A DNA stretch of 64,000 nt from Halobacillus kuroshimensis DSM 18393. Lineage in GTDB: Bacteria > Bacillota > Bacilli > Bacillales > Halobacillaceae. The position numbers and the translations under genes were made by a program. The notes below the pieces were generated by a model. It made no database searches. It was not told the origin of the DNA and was given only the letters and a program-made list of their open reading frames with translations. How positions within the stretch are numbered: position 1 is the stretch's first letter; every line of letters starts with the position of its first letter. The stretch spans positions 124,001-188,000 of the forward strand of contig NZ_AUDY01000013.1 of NCBI RefSeq assembly GCF_000425705.1, read 5' to 3'. Of this stretch, positions 1,399 to 61,664 are shown piece after piece.

Positions 1399-1579
1399 AT
1401 GAGACTGGCATTCTGCTACGTTTTGATACGACTTAATCACACTGGATCAGCTTCGGAGCTGTAAGGATGCAATAGAGGTAGGGATTGCGTCGTTTAAGTT
1501 GCTTAAAAACTACCATGTAGAATTAAACAACCGCGGCAATACCGTGGATGAATCGATCCACGAAGACTTGTTTATCTAA
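1399..1579 (+). pseudogene. Possible small gene split by a +1 frameshift
   Basis: ATG 1399 opens a 21-codon frame ending at 1464. The next frame is open without a start from 1427 to a TAA at 1577-1579 and reads like a real protein (for example KDAIEVGIASFKLLKNYH). Joining the two in the overlap near 1427-1464 would give a product of about 60 residues. This could be a frameshifted pseudogene, a programmed frameshift or chance. The ribosome site before 1399 is weak (AAAGAAAGAG). I do not recognise the family. Confidence 0.3.
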
Positions 1580-2114: not shown

Positions 2115-2143
2115 AAAAGGTGCCGTCTATAAACGGCACCTTT
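2115..2143 (+). terminator. Terminator bracketing repeat copy A, left
   Basis: AAAAGGTGCCGT pairs with ACGGCACCTTT across a six-base loop, starting at the stop codon of the preceding gene. It is nearly the same sequence as the hairpin at 2711-2740 on the other side of the repeat. Confidence 0.8.
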
Positions 2144-2710
2144 CTGCTTGTATAGAAACCCCAGTTTCTTTACAAGCTTCTTTCTTTCTTACCGCCAGGA
2201 GCGAAAGCCCCTTCCCTTTCCGCGGACGAGCGCCCGAGCTTCCTCGCAAAAACCACACTCGGCGATCTCGGACCACTCGCTCTTCCGCAGGAGTGGAAGG
2301 GGCACCGCTCCTTGGGAGTTCTTTAACATCGAAAAAGACTCTCCTTCACCCAGCTCACCCTTGCTGGATGGAGGACAATCTTTTCCATATTCCGGCCGAC
2401 AGCCTTCATCAGCGCCTGTTCTTTCCCTTTTTCTTTTCCACGCAAGCGGCCATAGCGCAGCCCATGCCGTTCTTTTTAATCTGCGGAGGGCACACACTCT
2501 CTCCTCTATATTCTAACGTCGGCACGAGGAGCGTTCGGTGGTGATGCCTGCGGGAACAGCACGGACCGAAGATCCACTTGGGCAGATGATCTTCCTGACC
2601 AAGTCAGCTGAGGGCGTGCCCGCGGCATTCATCCACCAATAAGCGGAATGTGACGCTTTACACGACAAAGGGACAACTCTAACTGGTTAACGCAGGCTTT
2701 TTCTACAGCC
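2144..2710 (+). repeat. Dispersed intergenic repeat, copy A (MITE-like)
   Basis: About 565 bp, related along most of its length to copies at 19391-19819, 49228-49645 and 61180-61643 and to the relic at 51926-52055. One end is a hairpin, GCTTGTATAGAAAC pairing with GTTTCTTTACAAGC (2146-2177). The other ends in CTTTTTCTACAGCC. Read inward, the two ends share an imperfect inverted repeat of the type GCTTGTAGAGAAA and GCTGTAGAAAAA. No transposase is present. Reading frames inside it (for example 2189-2497, minus) recur only because the DNA recurs. Confidence 0.8.
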
Positions 2711-2740
2711 AAAAGGTGCCGTCTTTTAGACGGCACCTTT
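2711..2740 (-). terminator. Terminator bracketing repeat copy A, right
   Basis: AAAAGGTGCCGT and ACGGCACCTTT form a hairpin downstream of the minus-strand YwbE-family gene. Stem and 3-prime flank (CTGTTTGT versus CTGCTTGT) are near-identical to 2115-2150. Confidence 0.8.
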
Positions 2741-2755
2741 CTGTTTGTCAGCTTT

Positions 2756-19383: not shown

Positions 19384-19390
19384 AAAACCA

Positions 19391-19819
19391 GCTTGTAGAG
19401 AAACTTATGTTTCTCTACAAGCTTTTTTTCTTTCTTAACGACAGAAGCGAAAGCCCCTTGGGAGTTCTTTAACATCGAAAAAGACTCTTCTTCCCCCCCC
19501 CCGCTCACCCTTGCTGGATGGAGGACATTCTTTTTCATATTCCGGCAGGCAGCCGTCATCAGCGGCTGTTCCTTTACCTTTTCTTTTCCACGCAAGCGGC
19601 CACAGCTCAGCCCATGCCGTTCTTTTGAATCTGCGAACCTGTGCACACGAGGAGCGTTCGGTGGTAATGCCTGCGGGAACAGCACCGGCCGAAGACCCAC
19701 TTGGGCAGGCGACCTTCCTGACCAGGTCAGCTGAGGGCTTGCCCGCGGCATTCATCCACCGATAAACGGAAAGTGAAATGGACAACTCTAACTGGGTAAC
19801 ACAGGCTTTTTCTACAGCC
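19391..19819 (+). repeat. Dispersed intergenic repeat, copy B (MITE-like)
   Basis: About 430 bp in the same orientation as copy A, with an internal deletion relative to A near the purine-rich arm. It begins with hairpin AGCTTGTAGAGAAAC and GTTTCTCTACAAGCT (19390-19423) followed by TTTTTTT, a good terminator for the RsbR-like gene, and ends CTTTTTCTACAGCC. The flanks share the 12-base direct repeat AAAAACCAGCTT (left 19383-19394, right 19820-19831), and the right copy is the arm of the next terminator. Confidence 0.8.
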
Positions 19820-19858
19820 AAAAACCAGCTTCCTGATCAAACAGGATGCTGGTTTTTT
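19820..19858 (-). terminator. Terminator of the nucleotidyltransferase gene
   Basis: AAAAACCAGC and GCTGGTTTTTT pair, with an inner CCTG and CAGG stem, overlapping the stop codon region of the minus-strand gene. Confidence 0.75.
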
Positions 19859-25555: not shown

Positions 25556-25728
25556 AAAAGACACCTCGATTCCATACGAAGGCTGAAAACCTGATTTAAA
25601 ACCCGAACCAGCTTCTCAAACCGTCCGCTTATGTACCCAATCGTTTCCTATCTCCTTCATACGTTGTCCTGAACAGATGAAAATATCCCCTTCCGCTCCA
25701 CGGCATCCAAGATTCGGGAGATAAAAAA

Positions 25729-25759
25729 GCTTATAGAAAAACAAGGTTTCTCTACAAGC
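25729..25759 (-). terminator. Lone repeat-end hairpin acting as terminator
   Basis: On the minus strand GCTTGTAGAGAAAC pairs with the near-complement GTTTTTCTATAAGC and is followed by TTTTTT, 15 bases after the stop of the gene at 25774. The arm is identical to the end hairpin of repeat copy B, so this is probably a solo end of the same repeat family. Confidence 0.65.
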
Positions 25760-25773
25760 AGAACATCGTTCCC

Positions 25774-43919: not shown

Positions 43920-44155
43920 TCAAAATCAATGACAAAGAGAGTAGCCGGCAGGAAGGTCACAGCGAACCGGGGGTGGTGGAAGCCCGGATGTCCTTCTGTC
44001 GGTGAACCGGACTTTGGAGATGTTCTTCTGAAACAGAAGTAGGAAGATCCGGGGGCACCCCGTTATCAAATTCAAGCGGCTGATTTATATTCAGCTATAA
44101 GAGTGGCACCGCGAGCCCAGGCCTCGTCTCTTTTTTTAGAGACGGGGCCTTTTTA
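43920..44155 (+). promoter_or_regulatory. T-box riboswitch of argS
   Basis: A classic T-box leader. Stem I is built on CCGGCAGGAAGG and CCTTCTGTCGG, with AGTA on its 5-prime side. The specifier region GGTGAACCGGA contains CGG (44008-44010), an Arg codon. The T-box GTGGCACCGCGAG is at about 44104-44116. The terminator GGCCTCGTCTC and GAGACGGGGCC lies at 44119-44150, followed by TTTTT. Uncharged tRNA-Arg should stabilise the antiterminator and turn on argS. Confidence 0.9.
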
Positions 44156-49227: not shown

Positions 49228-49645
49228 AAAAAAAGCCTGTGTTAACCAGTTAGAGTTGTCCATTTGTCGTGTAAAGGGTCACATTCCGCTTATCTGTGGA
49301 TGAATGCCGCGGGCATCACCATCGAACGCTTCTCGTGTACGCAGGTTCGCAGATTCAAAAGAACGGCATGGGCTGCGCTACTGCCGCTTGCGTGAAAAAA
49401 AAGGGGAAGGAACAGTCGCGGATGACGGCTGGCTGCCGGAATATGAAAAAGACTCTCCTCCATCCAGCAAGGATAAGCTGGGTGAAGGAGAGTCTTTTTC
49501 GATGTTAAAGAACGCCCAAGGAGCGGGGCCCCTTCCACTCCTGCGGAAAGCTCGGGCGCTCGTCCACGGAAAGGGAAGGGGCTTTCGCTCCTGGCGGTAA
49601 AAAAGAAAAAAAGCTTGTAAAGAAACAGAGGTTTCTCTACAAGCT
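49228..49645 (-). repeat. Dispersed intergenic repeat, copy C (MITE-like)
   Basis: About 420 bp, inverted relative to copies A and B, between eutH and msrA. The left end reads AAAAAAAGCCTGTGTTAACC and lacks the outermost GGCTGTAGA bases. The right end is hairpin AGCTTGTAAAGAAAC and GTTTCTCTACAAGCT (49612-49645). A hairpin, CCCTCA and TGAGGG (49650-49662), lies on the msrA side only. Confidence 0.8.
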
Positions 49646-49670
49646 GATCCCCTCAGTGAGGGACTTTTCA

Positions 49671-50266: not shown

Positions 50267-50390
50267 CTCTCATCTCTTAGGATGGTATTCATCCTACAGG
50301 AATTGGCACCGTTCTCGTCAATCCGTGGATTGATTCGATGGTTGCCGGGCATCAAAGGGCCAGTCCCTCCGCCTCTCTGGATAAGAAGTT
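50267..50390 (-). promoter_or_regulatory. SAM-I (S-box) riboswitch upstream of msrA
   Basis: On the minus strand the S-box core is near-perfect: CTTATCCAGAGAGGCGGAGG followed by GACTGGCCC, TTTGATGCCCGGCAACC, the P3/P4 arms and a closing GATGAGAG that pairs with the 5-prime end. Bound SAM should allow the terminator at 50214-50247 and shut off msrA. Confidence 0.93.
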
Positions 50391-61153: not shown

Positions 61154-61179
61154 AAAAAAGCTCCCTAAATAAGGGAGCT
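61154..61179. terminator. Hairpin bracketing repeat copy D, left
   Basis: AGCTCCCT and AGGGAGCT pair across five bases with an A-run. The same hairpin recurs at 61644-61664 with one loop change. Confidence 0.75.
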
Positions 61180-61643
61180 ATTGGCTGTAGAAAAAGTCCG
61201 TGTTAACTAGTTAGAGTTGTCCATTTGTCGTGTGAAGGGCCACAATCCGCTTTTTGGTGGATGGATGCCACGGGCATCACCACCGAACGCTCCTCGTGTA
61301 CGCAGATTCAAAAGAACGGCATGGGCTGCGTTATGGCCGCTTGCGTGGAAAAGAAAAAGGGAAAGAACAGGTGCTGATAACGGCTGCCTGATGGAATATG
61401 AAAAAGATTGTCCTCCATCCAGCAAGGATGAGCTAGGTGGAGGAGAGTCATTTTCGATGTTTAAGAACTCCCAAGGAGCGGCGCCCCTTCCACTCCTGCG
61501 GAAGAACGAGTGGTCCGAGATCGCCGAGCGTGGGTTTTGCGAGGAAGCTCGGGCGCTCGTCCGCGGAAAGGGAAGGGGCTTTCGCTCCTGGCGGCAAGAA
61601 AGAAAAAAGCTTGTAAAGAAACAGAAGTTTCTCTACAAGCTGA
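61180..61643 (-). repeat. Dispersed intergenic repeat, copy D (MITE-like)
   Basis: About 465 bp in the orientation of copy C. It starts GGCTGTAGAAAAAG, runs through the conserved GTTAACTAGTTAGAGTTGTCC segment (longest here and in copy A), and ends in hairpin GCTTGTAAAGAAAC and GTTTCTCTACAAGC (61609-61640). It is intact compared with B and C and gives the family's clearest boundaries. Confidence 0.82.
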
Positions 61644-61664
61644 AGCTCCCTGAATAAGGGAGCT
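61644..61664 (-). terminator. Terminator of fabI, right bracket of repeat copy D
   Basis: AGCTCCCT and AGGGAGCT pair across five bases, next to the minus-strand fabI stop; same hairpin as 61160-61179. Confidence 0.75.

Follow-up and report, generated by a model that had tools for sequence, protein, structure and literature searches.

The window analysed here, 64,000 nucleotides of contig NZ_AUDY01000013.1 of Halobacillus kuroshimensis DSM 18393 (positions 124,001 to 188,000, forward strand), contains four copies of a short repeat, denoted A, B, D and E, as well as a solitary hairpin derived from an element end (Table 1). Copy A, the most closely examined here, is 568 bp long and has a hairpin in the same orientation on each side. 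The two hairpins are direct copies of each other, with differences confined to the loop region, and align with a score of 21, compared to a maximum of 12 among 306 mismatched pairs of 5' and 3' flanks, in accord with the near-identical terminator hairpins reported in the preliminary description of this DNA. The right boundary of copy A is ambiguous because 1-2 A residues are common to the element and the hairpin copy.

Table 1. Features of the window discussed in the text (positions are those of the window)
Feature	Position	Strand	Remarks
BsrC sRNA	1417-1503	-	Rfam match
5' copy of duplicated terminator hairpin	2116-2143	+	AAAGGTGCCGTCTATAAACGGCACCTTT; directly 3' of ORF 1713-2114
Element copy A	2144-2711	- (= transposase sense)	non-autonomous IS1182-family derivative
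IS right end	2144-2183	+	terminal repeat, own hairpin, then T-rich run
Transposase C-terminus remnant in copy A	2359-2505	-	in-frame stop; protein match to G044 ORF
Module Y	2523-2648	.	conserved 126-bp separate high-copy repeat within copy A
IS left end	2698-2710	+	TTTTTCTACAGCC; inverted counterpart of right end
3' copy of duplicated terminator hairpin	2712-2740	+	AAAGGTGCCGTCTTTTAGACGGCACCTTT
Element copy B	19389-19819	-	3' hairpin intact, 19821-19856; 5' hairpin deleted down to AAAACCAGCTT
Solitary element-end hairpin, remnant	25728-25760	.	boundaries approximate
T-box leader	43920-44134	+	Rfam match
Element copy D	49235-49646	+	5' hairpin 49648-49665; 3' end and 3' hairpin gone; low-coordinate boundary approximate
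SAM riboswitch	50267-50387	-	Rfam match
Element copy E	61180-61642	+	duplicated hairpins 61643-61664 and 61158-61179 (minus strand)

The copy A insertion is common to a genome of the same genus (G014), where the hairpin is likewise present on both sides. The preliminary description had included the 3' flank in the repeat (TTTCTGCTTGT / TTTCTGTTTGT), but this match lies outside the duplication and is mostly coincidental because CTGCTTGTATAG is the element's own 5' end; it reads CAGCTTGTAAAG in the G014 copy, and the G014 3' flank at this insertion does not match the element 5' end.

The bracketing by hairpins that had also been described for copies D and E holds for E but not for D, which keeps the 5' hairpin alone. 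The 3' end of copy D is truncated into a T run, and we infer that the 3' hairpin and the last bases of the element were lost beside the GGC-T-run of the element and the empty site. At copy B, for which a 12-base direct repeat of the terminator arm had been reported, the 3' hairpin is intact, but the bracket as such is not, the 5' hairpin being eroded. At the same site in G014, the 5' hairpin is complete and the 3' hairpin has been eroded in part.

Ancestry of the element and module Y

Judging from its ends and coding remnants, the repeat appears to be a non-autonomous (MITE-like), internally deleted derivative of an ISBspe1-type insertion sequence (IS) of the IS1182 family. The minus-strand remnant in copy A is 61% identical over 51 residues (E 4.5e-12) to a C-terminal transposase ORF from genome G044; this ORF also matches copies B, D and E, and similar remnants are present in many other copies. 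PF13751 scores above the cut-off twice in the genome (C1:347941-348177 and C2:285041-285202), both times within element copies, and there are nine matches to NF033551, the best with 51.2 bits against a cut-off of 270. The terminal inverted repeats of the element consensus (CAGCTTGTAGAGAAAC..CTACAGCC) are shared with the G044 IS (CAGCTTGTAGAGAAA / CAGGCTGTCGAGAAA), the 5' end of the consensus being the same as CAGCTTGTAGAGAAA. No complete transposase was found in the 15-contig assembly, in which an IS could lie in an assembly gap; presumably, the copies were mobilised in trans by a transposase that is no longer found intact in this genome. A search of Rfam with the element yielded no family at the gathering score, the weak matches being to miRNA and sRNA families. 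With regard to a possible sRNA gene, an identification that was set aside, both strands of the element fold better than 20 shuffled sequences, as expected because of its palindromes.

Module Y is a repeat in its own right (the best 40 of 100 first-look candidates in this genome were scored), and copies of it, mostly 80-89% identical, occur in genomes of the same genus and of other genera of the family. It has no match in Rfam or in the plasmid collection, RNAalifold yields weak structures, and its outer stems differ in sequence and are complementary by eye. In the window and at L073-L076 and L279-L298, the module sits in short elements with two kinds of ends. Most copies of the Y-holding repeat family L279-L298 (genomes G015, G010, G036 and G027) terminate in a sequence resembling TTTTTCAGTGGCCTC; in reverse complement, this is the end of an IS1182-type IS in G002 and G045. 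L073, a Y-bearing element that lacks the usual 5' portion, also lies between duplicated hairpins (AAGACCTTCTGATT..), and from this case a second type of short element may share the hairpin-duplication mechanism.

Flanking hairpins across the genome and at orthologous sites

The element query produced at least 62 BLAST matches in the whole genome, merged by eye into at least 40 places, a lower bound because the best 40 of 115 first-look candidates were scored. Flanks were taken from 40 places, 36 outside the window and 4 within it; both ends could be called by motif in 18 of these, and 22 lack a recognisable end. Instead of the unrelated flanks in most genomic copies that the preliminary description had named as speaking against its proposal, a direct repeat of a hairpin was detected at the ends of 14 of the 18 copies with both ends called (among the best 40 of 115 candidates, with 22 of the 40 places lacking a called end), each scoring above all 306 mismatched flank pairs. 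With looser end calling, under which some ends are miscalled, 15 of 28 rows score above all 756 mismatched pairs. Among the 14 duplicated copies, the duplicated hairpin differs from site to site, and the gap between the repeat and the called ends is 0-3 bp in 13 of them and 7 bp in L062. The distance between the element ends is 380-615 bp (excluding L060, the end of which is miscalled).

The four copies without a duplication are L048, copy B, L069 and L060. L060 is a truncated element with a miscalled right end. For the missing 5' hairpin of copy B and L069, later loss is the simplest account because G014 has a 5'-side hairpin at the same insertions. The true exception is L048, in which the element lies between two different hairpins that are already adjacent in G014.

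Using as queries the upstream flanks of the 23 copies other than A for which the left end had been called, we located all 23 orthologous sites in G014. The element is present there in the same orientation at six sites (L042, L053, L062, L067, L069 and copy B) and in the opposite orientation at four (L047, L058, L061 and L066); two sites (L057 and copy E) carry another Y-bearing insertion, and at 11 sites neither the element nor Y is matched on either strand within 892-1200 bp. Empty sites with a single hairpin, which had been proposed as the test of duplication, are what was found: exactly one hairpin is present in 9 of the 11 element-free sites (120 nt examined), at L060 the terminator is accompanied by another, weaker hairpin that differs from it, the two hairpins at L048 are unlike each other, and two copies of one hairpin occur at none of the 11. 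At L041, L043, L046 and L055, the lone hairpin of the empty site aligns with both of the hairpin copies that flank the element in the occupied site. At the copy A locus, the element is absent from 15 more distant relatives in which both flanks are present (three further relatives lack a flank); a scripted scan that called hairpins at a threshold found one hairpin in 10 of the 15, none in 5 and two in none. The 14 duplications and the single-hairpin empty sites together support the original proposal that the element inserts into, and duplicates, Rho-independent terminators.

At L058 and L061, the two genomes have the element in the same terminator but in opposite orientations, and in each genome the hairpins on both sides are of that genome's own version. 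Independent insertions into the same terminator are the simplest reading of this pattern, which we prefer to inversion between the palindromic hairpins. At L067, the hairpins on the two sides of the G014 copy differ from each other.

Longer IS1182-family relatives

An IS of about 1.6 kb is present in genome G044 in four copies, each of them flanked by duplicated hairpins according to the printed ends; a fifth, related copy has a duplicated hairpin as well. In the G044 copies (L159-L162) and the G039 loci, the transposase is encoded in two overlapping frames, which may reflect either frameshift expression or shared decay; many relatives have a single ORF of about 450 aa. The ends of the G039 copies L163 and L164 were not found.

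When named genomes were surveyed with the G044 protein as query, 80 of the 138 loci found were kept. Omitting 8 loci near a contig end (L234, L238, L240, L252, L253, L270, L271 and L276), 8 more with an end that was not found and 2 of the remaining 64 that had no flank, 62 loci could be compared. In 43 of the 62, with 29 organism labels among these 43, a direct repeat abuts both IS ends; none of 3706 mismatched pairs reaches the same score. The repeats are 16-33 bp long (median 22), and 38 of the 43 pair from their outermost bases with at least 6 net bp, which is the case for 0.09% of shuffled sequences. Further pairing of at least 1 bp outside the repeat is possible in 33 of the 43 (mean 2.9 bp, mismatched control 1.9), so that the junction does not coincide in every case with the base of the longest stem that could form. 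Of the 43 targets, 38 have an A or T tract on at least one side; because the other 5 have none, the target is the hairpin, usually terminator-like, rather than the terminator as such. The ends of the IS are themselves terminator-like, with a hairpin and a T-rich tail, at the left in 41 of the 43 loci (0.001 for shuffled ends) and at the right in 27 (0.003). Many of these copies are decayed or shorter, given that only 18 of the 43 yielded an ORF of at least 420 aa. The 19 loci without an abutting repeat include some with miscalled ends or runs of N; at L219, L237, L262 and L272, the hairpins on the two sides are different.

The same pattern was observed beyond this survey. A second type of IS, in G046, has a whole-hairpin repeat in 9 of 9 copies with both ends (of ten copies, L135 was omitted for want of a recognisable left end), with a mean repeat score of 23.8 versus 0.1 in the controls. 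One Peribacillus and one Sutcliffiella plasmid copy show whole-hairpin duplication; in a second Peribacillus copy and in one from Exiguobacterium, the hairpins on the two sides are not the same. Among 13 plasmid loci (L299-L311), a whole-hairpin repeat is present in seven (L299, L300, L302, L303, L304, L305 and L307; for L300, L303 and the outer pairs of L304, it was read from the printed flanks), including single copies from Rhizobium, Klebsiella and Vibrio plasmids. L306 and L308 have unlike hairpins on the two sides, L301 is ambiguous, and L309-L311, which belong to a replacement-type clade, have no such repeat. In a further set of 8 loci, a whole-hairpin repeat was found only at L128; L167 and L168 have short repeats, and no convincing hairpin repeat was detected at L104, L111, L131, L158 and L169. 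It had gone unnoticed in the preliminary description that hairpin duplication is a trait of some IS1182-family lineages, that hairpins rather than terminators as such are the target, and that copies B and D are eroded.

Probable insertion mechanism and relation to known systems

Comparison at the sequence level demonstrates the duplication of the hairpins, the single-hairpin empty sites, the IS1182 ancestry, the like behaviour of the longer relatives and the terminator-like ends of the IS. On this basis, we consider it very probable that the repeat is a non-autonomous ISBspe1-type IS1182 derivative that inserts at the foot of a stem-loop, with gap repair duplicating the whole hairpin. Specifically, the site of insertion would be the foot of a sequence able to form a stem-loop, in most cases an intrinsic terminator, where the transposase would join the two element ends to the two feet on opposite strands, one end per foot; gap repair would then copy the whole stem-loop and leave one hairpin on each side. 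The target duplication would be as long as the hairpin (16-33 bp in the survey) because the whole stem-loop is copied, and its size would thus be set by the hairpin rather than by a fixed cut. The putative target is an extruded cruciform or another structure resembling a four-way junction, in which the feet would be close to each other whatever the length of the stem; recognition of structure is suggested because one type of transposase gives repeats of 16-33 bp with ends that track the stem. The reaction would amount to strand transfer of the DDE type at both 5' feet of a pair of extruded stem-loops, corresponding to pathway b in Fig. 13 of PMC5678879, where, in the part of that article available, duplication of the whole loop is drawn only as a possibility. 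The element displaces the host T run, but the IS ends of the relatives are themselves terminator-like; such ends would keep the upstream gene that is hit terminated, so that insertions would be tolerated, and would also shield the transposase gene.

Several alternatives bear on different parts of this scheme. If the element inserted without duplication between two pre-existing hairpins, such as tandem or bidirectional terminators, the pattern at L048 would follow directly, given its exactly two adjacent different hairpins in element-free G014, and the second, weaker hairpin near the terminator at the L060 site would fit as well. As a general account, this is refuted because the empty sites have single hairpins: neither the element-free G014 sites nor the distant relatives at copy A hold two copies of one hairpin, and the flanking hairpins match each other within a duplicated site and differ between sites; we regard it as highly improbable. 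It is also improbable, to a lesser degree, that ordinary target duplication with duplex cuts of variable stagger is at work and that hairpins are what selection leaves, terminators being merely tolerated. Sites downstream of genes are likely cheap to hit, and IS1182 repeats are variable (2-60 bp according to ISfinder, as quoted in the available text of PMC7335449); selection on location alone, however, would not match the length of the repeat to the stem-loop, and here the repeat ends coincide with the hairpin ends over 16-33 bp, the survey repeats for the most part pairing from their ends.

Recognition of the hairpin on single-stranded DNA, in the lagging-strand template or an R-loop, rather than as an extruded cruciform, deserves more weight, although we consider it unlikely. 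Hairpins form readily in single strands, and the sequence data fit both kinds of recognition alike; nevertheless, a two-ended DDE insertion that duplicates the hairpin requires both strands of the site, and single-strand transposition of the IS200/IS605 type is not known to leave a duplication. Group IIC introns insert next to intrinsic terminators, a preference that they have in common with the element, but the notion that the element is such an intron is scarcely credible considering that it has no Rfam match at the gathering threshold and instead possesses inverted ends, a target duplication and an IS1182 transposase remnant. Identification of the element as a group IIC intron or a known RNA was accordingly rejected, with no support in Rfam and the transposase remnant present.

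Returning to insertion at the feet of a stem-loop, we lean slightly towards a broader view, namely that some DDE transposase lineages read the structure of the target, rather than its sequence or length, and attach the two element ends to the two feet of an extruded hairpin, with a duplication length equal to the hairpin size, that they bring their own terminators and thereby keep the gene that is hit terminated, and that the outcome tracks the transposase lineage. Under such recognition of structure, other IS1182 lineages would remove the same kind of target, as in the IS1272 type, or would make short repeats. Whole-hairpin duplication accounts in physical terms for much of the 2-60 bp range of IS1182 repeats quoted from ISfinder, the repeat being the target hairpin in the ISBspe1-type and G046-type sets analysed here, and provides natural cases, across Bacillales and on single Rhizobium, Klebsiella and Vibrio plasmids, of a pathway otherwise drawn only as a possibility. 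Recognition of DNA structure by a DDE transposase becomes testable with a simple plasmid target, and the terminators that the element brings along suggest how a parasite can occupy gene ends cheaply.

The IS1182 family and its preference for palindromes are known: some members target palindromes (Siguier and colleagues, as cited in the available portions of PMC5678879 and PMC4923244), and the family is among those over-represented between convergent genes (PMC9208149, available part). IS1272, a member of the family, and TnSha1 target hairpins or terminators without a sequence consensus, as does the element, but, according to the same portions of PMC5678879 and PMC4923244, the target stem-loop is partly or wholly lost and no target duplication is made, whereas the element duplicates the whole stem-loop. 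In this genome, 14 of the 18 copies with both ends called keep two hairpins, in contrast to the removal of the target hairpin without a direct repeat in the IS1272 type. Nor is hairpin duplication a rule for the family, because ISPse1 and ISCaa15 are each listed with 4-bp repeats (in the available parts of PMC3281130 and PMC3196728, respectively).

Two other groups of the family differ from the element in their outcome. An IS of G048, a genome that matches Terribacillus sp. DMT04 with 100% protein identity, has several copies in terminator-like arms and, unlike the element, shows target duplication in 0 of 14 copies. Its flanking arms pair with each other with a mean of 4.4, compared to a mismatched average of 1.1, which might indicate hairpin replacement as published for IS1272; this reading is tentative because single mismatched pairs reach 9. 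The IS of G002 and G045 (ends GAGGCCACTGAAAA; NF033551 over the cut-off) has apparent direct repeats of 8-9 bp and, in contrast to the element, no hairpin duplication, as judged from only two copies and with an end-choosing scan that also rewards repeats. In a tree built from transposase ORFs only, the Terribacillus, S. haemolyticus, Cytobacillus and Kurthia rows make up one clade with full support and the two short-repeat rows another, each on a very long branch, the deep order not being resolved; the assignment of S. haemolyticus to the replacement type comes from the IS1272 literature, its ends not having been found here.

In the literature searched, which left most subscription journals and the ISfinder pages uncovered, no IS was described as duplicating an entire hairpin, nor was such duplication reported there to be what usually happens in whole groups of IS and in their non-autonomous derivatives. 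The ISBspe1-type IS on a plasmid of Alkalihalophilus pseudofirmus OF4 (WP_049779884.1) belongs to the same transposase group as the element, has similar ends, and is flanked by a duplicated hairpin, as the element copies are; the copies in the window differ from it in having no complete transposase and in carrying the 126-bp module Y.
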